This document shows positions 1,437 through 7,896 of a stretch of DNA of 64,000 nucleotides, piece by piece (position 1 is the stretch's first letter; each line of letters begins with the position of its first letter). Under the pieces are notes generated by a model. The model was not told where the DNA came from. It saw only the letters and a program-made list of their open reading frames with translations, and ran no database searches. This stretch comes from Novosphingobium kunmingense (GTDB lineage Bacteria > Pseudomonadota > Alphaproteobacteria > Sphingomonadales > Sphingomonadaceae): positions 310,001-374,000 of the forward strand of contig NZ_PHUF01000003.1 of NCBI RefSeq assembly GCF_002813245.1, given 5' to 3'. A program made the translations under genes and the position numbers.

Positions 1437-2272
1437 CGAACCGCGTCCGCGATGATCGCGGCAAGGACGGACGTTCCGGCCGCAGTGAGGTGCACGATGT
1501 CGGCATAGCAGGCATCGCCCCAGCGCGGGTCCGCGGCAAGGTCGACGATCCCGATCGAGCGGTCGTCCTGCCCGAGCGAGCGGGCATAAGCGACCAGGTC
1601 ATCCCGCCCGCAGCCGCCGCGATAGGGCAGGCAGACTAAGGTGACCGTGCCGGCAAAGGATCCGCCCAGCGCGGCGAAGCGCGTCCGGTTGGCCTCGCGC
1701 TGGTCGGGGGTGACGCCGGACTGCCGGACCGTTCGGGCGCCGAAGCGGCGGTAGAGCGTGCGCGCGGCGAGGAACGGTGCAAGCAAGGCAGGCTTCTGCG
1801 TCGGAAAGGACAAGGTGCTCTCCCCTTCGCCGATCGTGTCGAGGTCGCCGGGGTTGAGCAGCAGAATGAGATGGTCTGCCTTGCGCCACGCCGGCAAGGC
1901 TTCCAGTGCTCCCAGAGTGTTGGCCAGCGCCCAGCCGTGGCACGCAACCGGCCGCACCGGTTGCCCGGTTGCCGCGGCAAGGCGTTCGGCAAGGGTATCG
2001 GCCTGGGACAGTTGCAGGCCGCCGTCGACGACGCTGTCGCCGGCGATGACCGTGCTCCCCGACAGGTCGACATAGTCAGCATCGCTGCGCATCCCTGCGC
2101 CGTTGTAGCGCCAGGCGATCCGCCCACGGAACAGGCCCGACTGGTCGGGCGCCATGCGATAGACGCAGGCCGGATCGCGGCGGTACAGCGGAAAGGCGTC
2201 GAAGCCGGCGCGGCGCAGCACGATCTCCCCCGCCACCACCGCAACGATCACGATCAGGAGAAGGCTGGTCAC
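1433..2272 (-). CDS. Membrane-anchored SGNH/GDSL-like hydrolase of the EPS cluster
   Basis: The gene encodes 279 residues. The start is a GTG at the right end, forming a GTGA overlap with the TGA of the preceding glycosyltransferase. Residues about 2-16 are a hydrophobic N-terminal anchor. VIAGDSVVDGG (near residue 75) carries a GDS nucleophile-type motif, and DIVHLTAAG near the C-terminus gives the Asp-x-x-His pair of the SGNH fold. Such proteins in polysaccharide clusters often add or remove O-acyl groups on the polymer; here that is inference from context. A longer reading frame continues upstream, but that part only mirrors the neighbouring gene in another frame and was left out. Confidence 0.6.
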   Translation of the reverse strand: MTSLLLIVIVAVVAGEIVLRRAGFDAFPLYRRDPACVYRMAPDQSGLFRGRIAWRYNGAGMRSDADYVDLSGSTVIAGDSVVDGGLQLSQADTLAERLAAATGQPVRPVACHGWALANTLGALEALPAWRKADHLILLLNPGDLDTIGEGESTLSFPTQKPALLAPFLAARTLYRRFGARTVRQSGVTPDQREANRTRFAALGGSFAGTVTLVCLPYRGGCGRDDLVAYARSLGQDDRSIGIVDLAADPRWGDACYADIVHLTAAGTSVLAAIIADAVR

Positions 2273-3291
2273 GGGGCAAGTCCCAGCGCGGCCATCAGCC
2301 GCCGCACGCTTTCGGCGCCCTGGCTGCGGGCGGTCGCTGCCGCCGTGTCGGGCGGCTGGCGCCGCCCGATCGAGCCGAGCGGCAGGTTCGCCGGATTCCC
2401 GTCGTGGGTAAGGTGAACGAGCCCGCCCGAGAGGCAATGCCGTTCGATGAGAGTGCCCCGCCGCACGATAACCGGCACGCCGAGCTGGACCGCCCTCCCG
2501 AAGATGCCGGAGGCCTGGTCGTAATCGGGGGCATAGCTGCACCACACCGCATCGGCACAGGCATAGAGATCGCGCAGGCCCACCTCGTCGACGAAGACCG
2601 GCTCTGCAAGGCCGCCTGCGCGTTCGAACTGCGCCTGTTCTACGGCGATCTCGGGCGTGGTGCCGCCGCCGAAGGCGAACAGCCACTCGCCGTGCAAGTC
2701 GTCACGCGCGACATAGGTCTGGGCAAACTGGTCGAAGCCCTTGGACACGTCCTGGCGTCCGATCGCGCAGCAGATCCGCCGCGTGCCGGCTGCCGCGCGG
2801 ATCCTTGCTGCAAGGCCGCCCTGGGTGTGGGCGGCAAGCGGTTCGGGATAATGCAGGTCCCACAGCTGTGGGTCCCAGATCCAGTCCTTCGCCACCTCGG
2901 CAAACCGCGGCTCTAGGGCGAAGGGCAGGAGCGTGAAGGTCGTCACCCCGGGAACGCGCAGCAGCAGGCGCAGCATGGCCCGCTTCAGGCGCAGTTTCGG
3001 CGTGTCTGGATCGAGCACCGGCAACGGACGGAACAGCAGCCCAGCGGTCGGGCGGCCCAAGGCCGCGCGCGCCAGGGCCAACAGTACGTATCGCGGCATC
3101 GACGCCTCGAGCGCGCCGACCAGCACCGGCCTTCGGGTCAGCGCCGCCGTGAACCAGGAACCGGTCCGCTTCGCGCCGAGCAGCCGCGCAAAGAGCGCGT
3201 AATAGTCCAGCCGGTGACCTTCGTTGCCATCGTGCGAATCGTACAGGCAGACGCGCGGGCCGGACGGATCGTGTTGCGGTTGCGCGACCAT
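2269..3291 (-). CDS. Glycosyltransferase, GT4-like
   Basis: The protein has 340 residues. The C-terminal half resembles a GT-B nucleotide-sugar domain: GRQDVSKGFDQFAQ, FAFGGG, and a GIFGRAVQLGVPVIVRRG stretch corresponding to the E/G-rich donor-binding region of GT4 enzymes. However, the usual EX7E motif is degenerate, so the family assignment is moderate. The N-terminus has DSHDGNEGHRLDYY in place of the classic G-G loop. The ATG at the right end follows an AAGG about eight bases upstream. It is first of three tightly overlapping genes (glycosyltransferase, SGNH protein, fucosyltransferase-like) and is transcribed away from the phage-like pair. The likely role is addition of one sugar of the repeat unit. 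Confidence 0.55.
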   Translation of the reverse strand: MVAQPQHDPSGPRVCLYDSHDGNEGHRLDYYALFARLLGAKRTGSWFTAALTRRPVLVGALEASMPRYVLLALARAALGRPTAGLLFRPLPVLDPDTPKLRLKRAMLRLLLRVPGVTTFTLLPFALEPRFAEVAKDWIWDPQLWDLHYPEPLAAHTQGGLAARIRAAAGTRRICCAIGRQDVSKGFDQFAQTYVARDDLHGEWLFAFGGGTTPEIAVEQAQFERAGGLAEPVFVDEVGLRDLYACADAVWCSYAPDYDQASGIFGRAVQLGVPVIVRRGTLIERHCLSGGLVHLTHDGNPANLPLGSIGRRQPPDTAAATARSQGAESVRRLMAALGLAP

Positions 3292-3342
3292 GACCGCTGC
3301 CTTAGCCGCCTGCCGACACGATGCGCCAGCGTCGATCCTACT

Positions 3343-3410
3343 ATAACCATCCTAGAAATAAAACTTTCCTACAAATAACCATATTGGTTATCTGATGGTC
3401 GTACCATTGA
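3343..3410. promoter_or_regulatory. AT-rich divergent promoter region with two inverted repeats
   Basis: This stretch is far more A+T-rich than its surroundings and lies between a leftward glycosyltransferase operon and the rightward tail-spike-like pair. It contains the inverted repeats TAACC-ATATT-GGTTA (3376-3390) and ATGGT-CGT-ACCAT (3395-3407). These share the AACCAT/ATGGTT core, as does an earlier AACCAT. The layout is that of a divergent promoter with an operator; no regulator gene is adjacent and the binding protein is unknown. Confidence 0.4.
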
Positions 3411-3421
3411 TAGGAGCGCCC

Positions 3422-3847
3422 ATGCCGTCGACACCCATTCAGACTCCATCGAGTTACATTTCCAGCCACGCCGCAGCCTTTGCCGACGGCGAGGGCGCGG
3501 CGGTACTGGTCAGCGCCGCCAGCCCGCTTCCGGTTGCCTTCGGCGCCCCCGCTGCGACGCCGCTGGCCGGGTCGACCGCGGCCAGCGGGATCTTCGGTCC
3601 CTACGCCCCGGCGCTTGGCCGCGCGGTCATGCTGTCCCTTGGCGGCACCTGGACCGGGGCGGTCAAGGTCCTGCGCTCGGCCGATGGCGGGGCCACCAAG
3701 GTCCCGCTCACCCTTGGGGGGCAGCCGTGGGGCCAATTCACCGGCAATTGCTGCGAACCGGTCTGGGACGAAAGCGAAGGCGCCGCGCGCCTTTATCTCG
3801 ACATGGCGCTGAACTCGGGCACCTGCACCTACCGGTTCGCCCAATGA
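3422..3847 (+). CDS. Short phage-tail-type protein preceding the tail-spike-like gene
   Basis: The protein has 141 residues. The chosen ATG follows AGGAG (3412-3416) at good spacing; an in-frame upstream start would lie inside the AT-rich promoter. The protein is mostly beta-prone. Residues 58-140 (FGPYAPALGRAVMLSLGG, LRSADGG, then a C-terminal TCTYRFAQ) have the look of small proteins found next to tail fibre genes in sphingomonad prophages. That resemblance is from memory of such sequences, not from a search. There is no signal peptide or membrane segment. Its TGA overlaps the ATG of the next gene (ATGA), so both are probably made together. Function unknown; it may be a partner or adaptor of the spike protein. 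Confidence 0.5.
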   Translation: MPSTPIQTPSSYISSHAAAFADGEGAAVLVSAASPLPVAFGAPAATPLAGSTAASGIFGPYAPALGRAVMLSLGGTWTGAVKVLRSADGGATKVPLTLGGQPWGQFTGNCCEPVWDESEGAARLYLDMALNSGTCTYRFAQ

Positions 3848-5472
3848 GCGCCGACATCGTCGCGCGCGGCCTCGCGAAACAGGCCGCTTCGACCTCCACC
3901 GGCCGCACAGTCCAGGACAAGCTGAGCGAAACCGTCTCGGTGCTCGACTTCGGGGCCAAGGGTGATGGCGTGGCGGACGATACCGCCGCCATTCAGGCAG
4001 CGATCAATGCCGAACTGACGCCCAATGGCGGGGCCCTGTACTTTCCCGACGGGATCTACAGGATTACCGCCAAACTGGTCATTCCGTTCGCGACGGGGTG
4101 GCGGATCTACGGCCAGTCGCGCCGCGGGACGATCATCCGCCAGGCGACGTCGAACACGCGGATCTTCAGCCTCGAATCCGATCTGATCCACAGCTGGGAA
4201 ATCGGACACCTGTCCTTTCAGTGGGCGGTCAACCAACCGGCCAGCAACACCCAGGCCGTCGCGATCTTCCTGGGGACCGGAGCCGCCACATCGAGCGGCC
4301 TGTTCGATTGGCACGTTCACCACTGCGTCTTCCACAACGGCTTTCGCGGCGTGGCTTCGGACCCGTCGAACAGTCCGGCCGTGTGGGGCGCGACCGTCGA
4401 TCATTGTCAGCACCAGGGCACAATGTCCGGGGCCATGGTCTGCTTCGTGCCCACTCCGGCCGTCGGCCAGCCACGAATCACTGTTGCGGACAGCACCCTG
4501 ACGCTGACCAACGCGAGCGAAGCGGGCGTCAGGATATACTACGGCGACAACATCGTGCTGCGCAGCCTCGAATTGCTTGGCGGCACGGCGCCGATCCCGG
4601 TGATCGAAATCAGCGGCGCCTTCGTCTCGCTGATCGGATGCAAGGTCGAAAACTACAGCGCGGGCGCGTCGTCCACCGATCCGCTGATCAAGCTGGTCCA
4701 GAGCCAGGCGACGGTCATCAACTGTTCGTGCAACGGCCTCAGCGGCAGCGGCGGCGCGCCGCGCTTCATCCAGGGCGTCACCGGGACGCAACTCGCCATA
4801 ACCGGGCTGTGGTGCAGCGACAGCATGACCGGCGGCACGCCCATCGCCTATTGCGCCGATACCATCAGCCTGGTCGCCAACGTCCGGCTCCAGGGCCGGT
4901 TCACCGACAAGCTGCGATCCTACATCGGATCGGGCGCTCCGCTTCCGCGGCTGGATATCGACAAGCGCCAGAGCGATGCGGTGACCGAGATCGGCGATGC
5001 CTCCGTCACGCTGAACGCCGCGTCGGACCGGATCCAGTGCTTCACCGCAACCGTCACCGCGGCGCGTTCGGTCACCCTTCCCGGCAGCGGCGTCGCCTAC
5101 GACGGGATGGAATTCGAAGTGGTGCGTCGGGCATCGTCGCCCGGCGCCTTCGTGGTCCAGGTCATCGATCCGCTGTCCGGCCAGGATTTCTTCTTTCCCG
5201 CCAATTGCCGCGGCAGCATCCGTTATCGCTGCATCGGCGGCGGATCGTGGCGGATCATGCAGGCCAGCACGTTCCACGCCGCGGATACGGGGTGGACCGC
5301 ATCGACCGGCACCGCCAGCAAGGCCGCCTTTGCGGTCTACGCCGGTGCGACCCACACCGCGTCCTATGTCCAGGCCACGGTCCAGGCCCTCGACAACGCG
5401 GCGCGCGATACGGCCCGCCGCGTCAAGGCGATCGAGGACGCGCTGTTTGCGGGCGGCCTGATCAGGGCCTGA
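3844..5472 (+). CDS. Pectate-lyase-fold tail-spike-like protein (possible EPS depolymerase)
   Basis: The protein has 542 residues. Residues about 35-60 (VLDFGAKGDGVADDTAAI) are the classic opening of the pectate lyase superfamily 3 right-handed beta-helix, seen in phage tail spikes and some bacterial polysaccharide lyases. The centre is repetitive short-strand sequence as expected of a beta-helix. The last about 75 residues (from ADTGWT to a helical AARDTARRVKAIEDAL) resemble the C-terminal tail of phage fibre proteins. There is no signal peptide, so export by the usual Sec route is not evident. Location in the middle of an exopolysaccharide cluster suggests trimming or release of the polymer, comparable in role to the lyases of sphingan clusters; this is inference. 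No other phage genes are nearby. Confidence 0.65.
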   Translation: MSADIVARGLAKQAASTSTGRTVQDKLSETVSVLDFGAKGDGVADDTAAIQAAINAELTPNGGALYFPDGIYRITAKLVIPFATGWRIYGQSRRGTIIRQATSNTRIFSLESDLIHSWEIGHLSFQWAVNQPASNTQAVAIFLGTGAATSSGLFDWHVHHCVFHNGFRGVASDPSNSPAVWGATVDHCQHQGTMSGAMVCFVPTPAVGQPRITVADSTLTLTNASEAGVRIYYGDNIVLRSLELLGGTAPIPVIEISGAFVSLIGCKVENYSAGASSTDPLIKLVQSQATVINCSCNGLSGSGGAPRFIQGVTGTQLAITGLWCSDSMTGGTPIAYCADTISLVANVRLQGRFTDKLRSYIGSGAPLPRLDIDKRQSDAVTEIGDASVTLNAASDRIQCFTATVTAARSVTLPGSGVAYDGMEFEVVRRASSPGAFVVQVIDPLSGQDFFFPANCRGSIRYRCIGGGSWRIMQASTFHAADTGWTASTGTASKAAFAVYAGATHTASYVQATVQALDNAARDTARRVKAIEDALFAGGLIRA

Positions 5473-5492: not shown

Positions 5493-5527
5493 CGCCATGG
5501 CGCGCGTTATGCGTTCGCGCCATGGCG
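5493..5527. promoter_or_regulatory. Perfect 12-bp hairpin covering a start codon
   Basis: The arms CGCCATGGCGCG (5493-5504) and CGCGCCATGGCG (5516-5527) are exact reverse complements separated by 11 bases. The right arm contains the ATG at 5522 that best fits the next glycosyltransferase. There is no run of T after it, so a simple intrinsic terminator is unlikely. The structure could limit translation of the downstream gene or mark an mRNA end between the spike gene and the glycosyltransferase genes. Confidence 0.5.
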
Positions 5528-6775
5528 CACCTGCCCCAGCACCCGGACCCGTCAGGCCCGAGCCGAGCCGCGCGCCACAAGGCGGTCATCGCGGTGGTCT
5601 GGGCGCAGTTCGGTGCCTACCACGTCGATCGCTGCGAGGCGCTGGGCCGTCGTCTTTCCGGACACCGCGACGTGCTGGCGGTTGAGGTCGCGTCCGCTTC
5701 GACAAGCTATGCCTGGCAGCCATCGGGTGCCATTGCCGGCGGGGCGGAGAAGGTAACCCTGTTCCCGGGCCGCCGGTTCGAGGACATCCCGCAGATCAGC
5801 CGTCTGGTTGCGTTGACGCGGGTGCTTCGTCGCTGCGAAACGGTCTTTCTGGGGCTCGGATACGGCACCGTCGATGCGGTGATCCTGGCCTGGGTCCTTC
5901 GCCTTCTCGGGGTCAGGGTCGTGCTGATGACCGACTCCAAGGCCGAGGACCGCCCCCGCAACGTCGTGTTCGAAGCGATCAAGCGCGCGGCCCTGTGGCC
6001 GCATCGCGCCGCCATCGTCGCCGGACAGCGCCAGATCGATTACCTGCGCGGCCTCGGCTTTCGCCGGCGCCCGGTGCTGCCGGGCTATGACGGGGTCAGC
6101 GTGGCAAGGGTGCGGCTGGAAGCGGGATGCGAACCGGCGCCGGACGGCACCGCTTTCGCCGACCGACCGTTCCTGTTCGTCGGGCGCTTCGTCGAAAAGA
6201 AGAACATTCCCGTCCTGATCGACGCCTACGCCGCCTATATCGCCCGGGCAGGCACCGGCGCACGGCCGCTCCATCTTGCCGGATCCGGCCCGCTCGATGC
6301 CGCACTGAAGGCCAAGGTCGAGCGATTGGGGCTTGGCGACAAGATCCGCTTCCTGGGCTTTCTCGACAGCGCGGGGACCAGCCGGGCCATGGGCGGCGCG
6401 CTTGCCCTGATCCTGCCCAGCACGGTCGAGCAGTGGGGGCTTGTCGTGAACGAGGCCGTAGCCGTCGGGCTTCCCATCCTCGCGTCCTTTCCCGTCGGCG
6501 CGCGCGACTTGCTGGTTCGTGACGGCGTGAACGGCTTCTCGTTCGATCCCGCCGACCACCAGGCCATCGCGGCTGCGATGCACGCGCTGGCCGGCGACGA
6601 GGCGCTGTGGCGGCGCATGGCCACTGCGTCGCGCGATCTCGCCTGGCTGGGCGACTGCGACCGCCTGGTCGATGCGGTCGAAGTGCTGCTCGATCCGACG
6701 GCGAGCGCCGCACGGGCGGGCGTCGACCGGGTCCTCGCAGCCTTTCCCCCGGCGCAATCGTCGAGCGCCCGATGA
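5522..6775 (+). CDS. Glycosyltransferase family 4
   Basis: From the ATG chosen here the protein has 417 residues; an in-frame TTG at 5486 would add twelve residues. The C-terminal GT-B domain is clear: FLFVGRFVEKKNIPVLIDAY (about 208-227) is the nucleotide-sugar-binding entry, followed by LAGSGPL, IRFLGFL and PSTVEQWGLVVNEAVAVGLP, which holds the EX7E-type motif of GT4. The start lies inside a perfect hairpin, and no strong ribosome site is visible. The TGA overlaps the ATG of another GT4 gene (ATGA), making a two-gene unit. It probably adds one sugar to the lipid-linked repeat unit on the cytoplasmic face of the inner membrane; donor and acceptor are unknown. Confidence 0.8.
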   Translation: MAHLPQHPDPSGPSRAARHKAVIAVVWAQFGAYHVDRCEALGRRLSGHRDVLAVEVASASTSYAWQPSGAIAGGAEKVTLFPGRRFEDIPQISRLVALTRVLRRCETVFLGLGYGTVDAVILAWVLRLLGVRVVLMTDSKAEDRPRNVVFEAIKRAALWPHRAAIVAGQRQIDYLRGLGFRRRPVLPGYDGVSVARVRLEAGCEPAPDGTAFADRPFLFVGRFVEKKNIPVLIDAYAAYIARAGTGARPLHLAGSGPLDAALKAKVERLGLGDKIRFLGFLDSAGTSRAMGGALALILPSTVEQWGLVVNEAVAVGLPILASFPVGARDLLVRDGVNGFSFDPADHQAIAAAMHALAGDEALWRRMATASRDLAWLGDCDRLVDAVEVLLDPTASAARAGVDRVLAAFPPAQSSSAR

Positions 6776-7896
6776 CACGGCCGCTGCATGGCCGCACGAT
6801 CGGCTTGCTTTCGGCCTGGGCGTCGCGGCTTGGCGGCGGCGTGTTCGAGGCAGTGCTGGCCCAGGCGAAACTGATCGAGGCGCTGGGCGGAACCGCGCGC
6901 GTCTTCGCCCTTCACGACGCGTACAGCGACGCGGACCGGCCTCGGTTCGGCTCGGTCGCGGTCGAAACCTTTCCCATCGTCGGGCCTGAGCTGATCGGCT
7001 TTGCGCCAAGGCTGATCCCGGCGCTGCTCGATGCGCCGATCGACGCGCTCCACCTTCACGGGATCTGGAAATACCCCTCGCGGGCCGGTGCGATCTGGGC
7101 GCGCCGGACGGGGCGGCCCTACTTGATTTCGCCGCATGGGATGCTCGATCCCTGGATAACCTCGCGCGGGCGCTGGAAGAAGGCGCTGGCCCGCCGCGGC
7201 TACGAAAATGCCAGCTGGCGCGCGGCCTCGGCGTTCCACGCGCTGACCGGCGATGAAGCGGCGGACATCCTGCGCGAGACAGGCCGCGACACGGTCCATG
7301 TCATCGCCAATCCCGCCCCGCCGCCCGGTCCGCCGCCAAGCCTGGCTCGGCTGCCGCATGTTGTCGCGATCGGGCGGATCCACCCCAAGAAGAACCTCGG
7401 CGCGCTGGTGGCCGCTTGGCGCCAGGCCCGCCTGCCGGCTGGGGCACGGCTCATCCTGGCCGGCTGGGGCGATCCGGTTGACGTCGCCGCGCTCGAGGCT
7501 GTCGTCGCCGAAGCGGGGCCGGACGTCGATTTCATCAGGCCGGTCTATGGCGAGGACAAGGCCCGCCTTCTCGCCGGGGCGCGCTTCACCGTGCTACCCT
7601 CGTTCAGCGAGGGCCTGCCCATGGCGGCGATCGAAGGCTGGGCCGCCGGGACGCCAGCGATCCTGACGCCGGCCTGCCACCTGCCCGAAGGGGTCGAGGC
7701 CGGCGCCGCGCTGGCCTGCGGCACCGACCCCGCGTCGATTGCCCGCGCGCTCGAACAGGGACTGGGGCTGGAGCCGGGGCGATGGCTCGCCATGGCCCGG
7801 GCAGCCCAGGCGCTGGCGACCGGCCCGTTTTCCGAAACGGAGATCGCGGCGCGCTGGGCCGACGCCTATGGCGCCGCACTGGACGAGCCGCGCTAG
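6772..7896 (+). CDS. Glycosyltransferase family 4
   Basis: The protein has 374 residues, with its ATG overlapping the preceding stop. The N-terminal domain has LGGGVFEAVL (the glycine loop) and LHLHGIWKY. The C-terminal domain has VVAIGRIHPKKNLGALV, LAGWGD and PSFSEGLPMAAIEGWAAGTP with the EX7E-type donor motif, as in WcaI/colanic-acid-type GT4 enzymes. SPHGMLDPW near residue 120 is typical of this subgroup. The stop TAG is shared as palindromic CTAG with the convergent TPR-like gene. It is the second of a pair of GT4 genes that probably act one after the other in repeat-unit assembly. Confidence 0.8.
   Translation: MTRPLHGRTIGLLSAWASRLGGGVFEAVLAQAKLIEALGGTARVFALHDAYSDADRPRFGSVAVETFPIVGPELIGFAPRLIPALLDAPIDALHLHGIWKYPSRAGAIWARRTGRPYLISPHGMLDPWITSRGRWKKALARRGYENASWRAASAFHALTGDEAADILRETGRDTVHVIANPAPPPGPPPSLARLPHVVAIGRIHPKKNLGALVAAWRQARLPAGARLILAGWGDPVDVAALEAVVAEAGPDVDFIRPVYGEDKARLLAGARFTVLPSFSEGLPMAAIEGWAAGTPAILTPACHLPEGVEAGAALACGTDPASIARALEQGLGLEPGRWLAMARAAQALATGPFSETEIAARWADAYGAALDEPR

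Follow-up and report, generated by a model that had tools for sequence, protein, structure and literature searches.

Why should a gene pair of the phage tail-spike type lie among exopolysaccharide (EPS) genes of a bacterium, with no phage around it? This question is raised by a 64,000-nucleotide stretch of the Novosphingobium kunmingense genome (contig NZ_PHUF01000003.1, positions 310,001 to 374,000; hereafter the window), in which the gene of a small protein, the adaptor P0001, is followed by the gene of a spike-like protein, P0002. Our analysis indicates that the pair is probably an ectopic accessory module, an adaptor with an EPS-acting spike, of the gene transfer agent (GTA) of the cell, which resembles that of Rhodobacter capsulatus (RcGTA). 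The directly supported parts of this reading are the conservation of the pair, its linkage to EPS genes, promoter elements common to GTA and lysis genes, and the swapping of spike bodies.

The two reading frames share 4 bp (ATGA), as the initial annotation of this DNA had described, and both were selected by codon-trained gene calling (G+C at third codon positions 0.82 for P0001 and 0.85 for P0002). Because P0001 also has full-length homologues in relatives, with up to 60% identity, the pair represents genes and not chance open reading frames (ORFs). Each protein has only one match in the host genome, where the pair lies on contig C2 outside the main GTA cluster and outside any prophage. EPS-type genes flank it on both sides and no phage gene was recognised among its called neighbours, in agreement with the claimed site between glycosyltransferase genes. 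The proposed AT-rich divergent promoter agrees with the base composition: the intergenic region 3292-3421, beyond which a divergent gene lies at 2269-3291, has 49% G+C against 67% in the window, with 34% in 3338-3405. No secretion signal was apparent at the N-termini (P0002 begins with MSADIVARGLAKQAASTSTG) by eye, no signal-peptide program having been used. A role in defence was considered and rejected, as PADLOC gave nothing for either protein at E ≤ 0.01.

The distribution of the pair was followed through the adaptor. With the window protein as query, matches were found in 27 of 98 related genomes, all within the genus. A profile of the adaptor family (alignment A1, 28 rows, with the window protein included twice, as P0001 and L139) reached 36 of the 98 genomes, the additional ones being weak matches to the N-terminal tag, and 45 of 298 genomes in 21 of 96 genera across the family. 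The comparisons below use 42 adaptor loci outside prophages. Of these, 25 belong to the genus, the window locus among them, and 17 to other genera, the latter taken from the 42 other-genus genomes found and mostly higher-scoring. Excluded were six prophage-like loci (L131-L134, L136, L137), L135 at a contig end, an internal partial match in G010, G351, and lone proteins that carry the adaptor tag.

An EPS-type gene was detected within about four genes of the adaptor at 38 of the 42 loci by profiles of EPS gene families run against all called neighbours of at least 90 residues; the profiles were built from clusters of the same genus loci, so that hits in the genus part are favoured. The same profiles found no such gene at six prophage adaptor loci, nine lone tagged-protein loci or six GTA clusters. 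At eight of the loci (seven from the genus and L363) a sugar-transferase family was the sole EPS-type hit. Pfam scans of the neighbours, which covered 59 of 97 proteins (selected by hand) and 62 of 66, do not enter this count. In the genus, several pairs have lptC-lptA on one side and on the other a bacterial sugar transferase gene, which is followed by what we take to be holA, lptE and leuS; the remaining pairs have glycosyltransferase, GDP-mannose dehydratase and polymerase-type genes as neighbours. The initial annotation had thus rightly tied a phage-type spike pair to an EPS locus and not to a prophage remnant. The condition that it had set for refutation does not hold: homologues are neither mostly in complete prophages nor absent from EPS loci of relatives, as is seen from the EPS count and from the lack of any P0001 match (E ≤ 0.01) in 50,697 phage records.

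The link to a GTA comes from the promoter. Placed side by side, the upstream regions show TTTCCTAC and then TAACC-N5-GGTTA, at a distance of about 45-60 bp from the start of the adaptor gene (window 3365-3390). The TTTCCTAC box lies within 150 bp upstream of 37 of the 42 adaptors, compared with 1 of 524 other gene starts from the same loci, and the palindrome (at most one mismatch) is present in 20 of the 42 adaptor promoters versus 12 of the 524 controls. In the 3.5-Mb host genome the perfect palindrome TAACC-N5-GGTTA was found at two places only, where about 0.85 copies are expected from base composition: in the pair promoter and, on another contig and just before TTGACA, in the promoter of the RcGTA-like structural cluster. 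This cluster (C4, about 301.6-315.5 kb) encodes a terminase (PF03237/PF17289), a portal protein (PF04860), a capsid protein (PF05065), Rcc01698_C (PF23666) and DUF2793. The combination TTTCCTAC-N0-20-ACC-N5-GG also occurs at two places in the host, before the pair and before an ectopic Phage_lysozyme gene. The latter (152 residues, PF00959, 2.6e-32; L247:890-1348, G000:C2 at about 576.6-577.1 kb) lies on the contig of the pair, 264 kb away, with no other phage gene called within 3 kb, and is a candidate GTA endolysin.

Across the 98 genomes, a stricter combined pattern ending in GGTTA gave 66 sites in 38 genomes and four for the reversed control. Thirteen of these sites precede adaptors and eight precede lone tagged proteins; 43 others were fetched, and the remaining two are outside the count. 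Nineteen of the 43, in 19 genomes, lie before a protein that in all 19 cases is GTA_holin_3TM, and one (L341) before a tagged protein. Several of the motif-led holin genes (L315-L354, for example L318:2617-3027) adjoin a gene that is presumably aroQ-like. The GTA clusters themselves were inspected in 24 stretches, 23 of which were counted (L391 has no terminase). The palindrome (at most one mismatch) is present in 12 of the 23 promoters, each time just before TTGACA; in five clusters (G003, G011, G033, G037, G047) its left half is retained at this position, the match having two or three mismatches, and six (G015, G021, G026, G027, G028, G039), with the best palindrome elsewhere, were scored as misses. 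By sequence comparison, the pair promoter appears to have elements in common with the GTA cluster and the lysis genes. The initial annotation had left the choice between a captured depolymerase and a particle-like system open; this promoter evidence points to the GTA of the cell.

The second gene of the pair keeps its start and changes its body. A mechanical search finds another ORF with its start within 200 bp of the adaptor at 40 of the 42 loci; without the L130 ORF, which is antisense to a called gene, the number is 39. A 4-bp overlap with the adaptor is seen in 22 of the 40, and 30 carry an N-terminal motif D-x2/3-A-R-[GA] (MSADIVARGLA type), the sequence beyond it being variable. Among the 39 bodies scanned, PF12708 was found in eight, Beta_helix in five and Lipase_GDSL_2 in eight (counts may overlap). 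The spike body is much less conserved than the adaptor, and that of P0002 has a match over most of its length in one relative only (G010, 42%). Because the N-terminal motif is kept while the bodies differ, we regard the module as a variable polysaccharide-type head, either a beta-helix or an SGNH esterase, borne by an adaptor that stays constant and an anchor that mostly does.

In P0002, residues 31-116 match PF12708, a pectate-lyase-like family (E 1e-17). Among the 25 of 41 PHROG families listed, tail-type matches fall between about residues 8 and 111, and residues 478-540 match one tail-needle family (2e-10). The same C-terminal segment (window 5275-5463) matches the C-terminal part of the P22-type tail needle gp26 (PDB 4zkp, 1e-8), which is unusual as the terminus of a spike of the beta-helix type. 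The predicted layout is a beta-helix at about residues 30-300 followed by the gp26-like C-terminus. An AlphaFold2 model has a mean confidence (pLDDT) of 50.5, with blocks of 31-300 at 47-86 and most of the remainder below 50; its Foldseek matches include tailspikes, alginate epimerases, RbmB and WceF (6tgf, 6.4e-4). This fold resemblance to lyases and hydrolases suggests that the spike may cleave polysaccharide. Phage tailspikes of the PF12708 type and P22 gp26 resemble P0002 in its beta-helix start and its C-terminus, respectively; unlike phage tailspikes, however, the pair has no prophage context, and none of 285 matching phage records covers 80% of P0002.

The adaptor has no match to Pfam, PHROG or NCBIfam at E ≤ 1. 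Its AlphaFold2 model (pLDDT 77, pTM 0.64) predicts a poorly ordered N-terminal tag (about residues 1-40, low confidence) and a C-terminal beta-sandwich (about 45-141). Foldseek gave no match for the model at E ≤ 0.001. The best rows listed by VIA-align include, among others, phage and virus structural proteins: YomS with Z 10.4 (root-mean-square deviation 3.8, 103 aligned residues), the KP1 baseplate with Z 9.3 (2.0, 86) and the KHP40 cement protein with Z 8.2 (4.0, 99), scores that are near the range of common arrangements. The RcGTA base protein is absent among the structure matches listed by both programs.

One of the closest known parallels is the RcGTA head spike. It consists of a jellyroll base protein and a fibre held by N-terminal residues (PMC7296036), and, like the tail fibres and the lysis genes, it is encoded away from the main cluster (PMC6209664). 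The locus tag of the fibre gene, rcc01080, is consecutive with those of the capsule genes rcc01081-01086 (PMC10218006), and the head spike binds the capsule of the cell itself (PMC7296036, PMC10218006, PMC6209664). Rcc01079/Rcc01080 and the pair are thus alike in comprising a small base and a fibre or spike with an N-terminal anchor, and in lying outside the main GTA cluster beside capsule or EPS genes (for R. capsulatus, by locus tag). The base is a jellyroll in Rcc01079 and a predicted beta-sandwich in the adaptor. In contrast to the RcGTA fibre, the spike body is of the beta-helix or SGNH type, and the anchor is of the D-x-x-A-R-G type instead of IALGLGLGL. The second genes of L368, L370 and L371 open with MSAL, after which Leu or Ile alternates with small residues (MSALALPALGLA, MSALGLSALGLA and MSALAIPALALA), which is reminiscent of the RcGTA fibre anchor.

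A second parallel is TspA (Rcc02623), described as an ectopic, GTA-regulated beta-helix depolymerase acting on biofilm polysaccharide, whose promoter is bound by GafA (PMC13420450). GafA also binds GTA and lysis promoters (PMC6363796; the section concerned used a 50-bp probe and gives no motif). TspA is a single protein with an N-terminal beta-sandwich of about 180 residues, encoded beside lysS (PMC13420450), whereas in the pair the PF12708 match of P0002 begins as early as residue 31, the predicted beta-sandwich has a gene of its own, and the site is an EPS cluster. Because the sequence and structure comparisons gave no homology of the adaptor to the RcGTA base, and the layout is not the one-protein layout of TspA, we class the pair as homologous neither to Rcc01079/01080 nor to TspA.

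Several observations weigh against a GTA module. In the host genome AACC-N5-GGTTA occurs at nine places (11 strand hits, with three for the reversed control), and the looser combined motif, TTTCCTAC-N0-20-ACC-N5-GG, gives two hits versus three for its reversed control; because reversed patterns also hit, the host evidence lies in the position of the sites and not in their number. At five loci between lptA and the sugar transferase gene (L148, L150, L154, L157, L158) the TTTCCTAC box is kept and the palindrome is not. Behind 23 of the 43 fetched sites no GTA gene was recognised with certainty; these 23 include three helix-turn-helix (HTH)-like proteins and what is probably a fragment of a holin (L312). 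The Caulobacter GafY element lies far upstream and differs in sequence from TAACC-N5-GGTTA (PMC11150451), so the reader of the palindrome may be another protein. The adaptor profile found no PDB chain below E 0.24, the presence of the Rcc01079 chain in that set being unchecked, and the P0002 model, built on a three-sequence alignment, is poor beyond residue 300.

Weak co-occurrence with the GTA adds to these points. PF13547 (GTA_TIM) was found in none of the 98 genomes, a Caulobacter control being positive, and because it failed as a marker DUF2460 was taken instead, which is present in 59 of the 98. DUF2460 is a single gene and an imperfect marker that also occurs in prophage-like regions, as does a second host copy (C2:684-685 kb). 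By genome tallies made by hand from tables, a non-prophage adaptor is present in 20 of 42 DUF2460-positive and 6 of 17 DUF2460-negative genus genomes (p 0.56). When adaptors with no in-frame stop and with a second ORF are counted in complete genomes, the numbers are 14 of 30 versus 2 of 13, a weak association (p 0.086). Two genomes that are 99-100% complete, G008 and G048, have the pair but no DUF2460, and motif-led GTA holins occur in the DUF2460-negative genomes G016, G034, G036 and G058.

The best surviving alternative, which we consider unlikely, is a captured, cell-owned EPS enzyme similar to WceF of Pantoea stewartii, which would trim or release the polymer, the small protein being a chaperone or adaptor with no particle involved. 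WceF is a tailspike-like beta-helix glycosidase with stewartan as its substrate, and its gene is part of the stewartan cluster (PMC7949094). The EPS linkage, the Foldseek matches of P0002 to WceF and RbmB, and the two genomes that keep the pair without a GTA marker all fit such an enzyme. However, WceF carries a Tat signal for export, and no adaptor partner or GTA promoter is mentioned in the part of its description available (PMC7949094); in the pair no signal is apparent. A plain EPS enzyme would also leave unexplained the promoter elements common to the GTA cluster, the lysozyme gene and the GTA holins, and likewise why the adaptor is related to prophage proteins. It was dropped as the leading idea because of the promoter evidence.

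We give little credence to a second alternative, in which the spike is co-regulated with the GTA without being particle-bound and acts as a soluble depolymerase that is freed by GTA lysis and clears the matrix for the particles. The same promoter evidence would support it, and TspA is reported to be only loosely attached to the particle and possibly also released free (PMC13420450). Against it stand the constant adaptor gene and the mostly constant spike N-terminus; because these persist while the bodies change, docking to a conserved partner is suggested.

A third alternative, that the pair came into EPS loci by chance from a sphingomonad prophage, as a remnant or moron, the shared motif being that of a phage-type regulator that now has no function, is just as improbable and was rejected: adaptor relatives do occur in six prophage-like loci and 11 viral contigs, the adaptor of G016 has no spike and that of G056 carries a TGA, but no phage neighbours were recognised, the prophage adaptors have another context (EPS genes at none of six), promoter and position are conserved, adaptor matches are spread over the 21 genera mentioned above (45 of 298 genomes, 17 of these loci inspected), and the window adaptor has no match in the 50,697 phage records. 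The 11 viral contigs are IMG/VR loci found with a prophage version of the adaptor; another version found one locus, and the window adaptor gave 25 pattern stretches and no relatives. The host also has a prophage-like region (G000:C2:660-697 kb; L194, L195) with its own DUF2460 and Phage-tail_3 proteins, in which two adaptor searches found no adaptor match.

The features of the pair and of its surroundings are collected in the table.

Table. Positions in the window of the adaptor and spike genes, their promoter elements and the adjoining genes
Feature	Position	Strand	Size or evidence
Adaptor ("P1", P0001)	3422..3847	+	141 aa
Spike ("P2", P0002)	3844..5472	+	542 aa
N-terminal anchor peptide of the spike, MSADIVARGLAKQA	3844..3885	+	D-x2/3-A-R-[GA] type motif
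TTTCCTAC box of the pair promoter	3365..3372	+	upstream in 37/42 adaptor loci
Perfect palindrome TAACC-ATATT-GGTTA, putative operator common to the GTA cluster	3376..3390	.	sequence comparison
Likely ribosome-binding site of the adaptor gene, AGGAG	3412..3416	+	read from sequence
Divergent upstream gene, glycosyltransferase-like (cluster cl18)	2269..3291	-	gene call and cluster
Downstream glycosyltransferase	5522..6775	+	PF00534, 2.5e-26 (L139:3523-4773)
Second downstream glycosyltransferase-type gene (cluster cl13)	6772..7896	+	gene call and cluster

The motif also leads to other genes. Lone proteins of about 325-430 residues with the adaptor N-terminal tag (MPNPPIxFPAxF...PLPV) were found at ten loci in other genomes of the genus (L230-L236, L239, L240, L341), with TTTCCTAC upstream and away from EPS genes. 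Five of the ten are near a gene that we take to be argG-like, and the lone tagged protein is perhaps a second GTA surface protein. At L314, L339 and L353 the motif precedes a protein of about 190-320 residues with an HTH or small-terminase-like stretch (QAARxIGAS). At L333 (G052:C18) it precedes phage-like genes of 135 and 347 residues, possibly another accessory type. G001 has six TTTCCTAC-palindrome sites (L327-L332), all on the + strand of their contigs and with no clear GTA gene behind them.

If the pair is a GTA module, it may work as follows. When the GTA programme is switched on, a regulator reading TAACC-N5-GGTTA would activate the structural cluster, the lysis genes and the pair. The beta-sandwich protein would dock on one end of the particle and hold the spike through its short conserved N-terminus, and the loaded particles would be freed by cell lysis and not by secretion. 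The initial annotation had found the missing secretion signal unexpected; it is explained if release is by lysis, as in GTAs. The spike body would then bind, and with its beta-helix probably cleave, the local EPS made by the neighbouring genes, while the SGNH bodies of other lineages would de-esterify theirs. In this way the particle would be able to locate, and get through to, cells that bear that polymer. Thus, the pair probably lets GTA particles recognise and cut through the polymer of the neighbouring genes.

The GTA-linked adaptor and spike module in EPS loci is real and widespread, and our searches of an open-access library found no description of it for this group. Whether it follows a rule that holds throughout the Sphingomonadaceae seems to us an evenly balanced matter. 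Under this rule, the receptor-binding and depolymerase specificity of the GTA would be encoded within the locus that makes the receptor, and an interchangeable EPS-acting head on a constant adaptor and anchor would be inherited and exchanged with the EPS genes as a kin-recognition cassette. The spike expected to act on the receptor and the genes for receptor synthesis are physically linked in many genera and come with a cheap sequence signature. The module also offers GTA regulon predictions in a group where TspA, the Rhodobacterales depolymerase, may be lacking, as it is reported missing in GTA-bearing Alphaproteobacteria outside that order (PMC13420450). It further offers enzyme candidates matched to the adjoining EPS, and a way to test kin-directed DNA transfer directly by genetics. 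Because the donor is killed by its GTA, the survival of GTAs is puzzling unless delivery is restricted to kin, and polysaccharide receptors have been proposed as such a restriction (PMC10883770). A kin-recognition cassette, if it exists, would limit this suicidal donation of DNA to cells that bear the donor's polymer.

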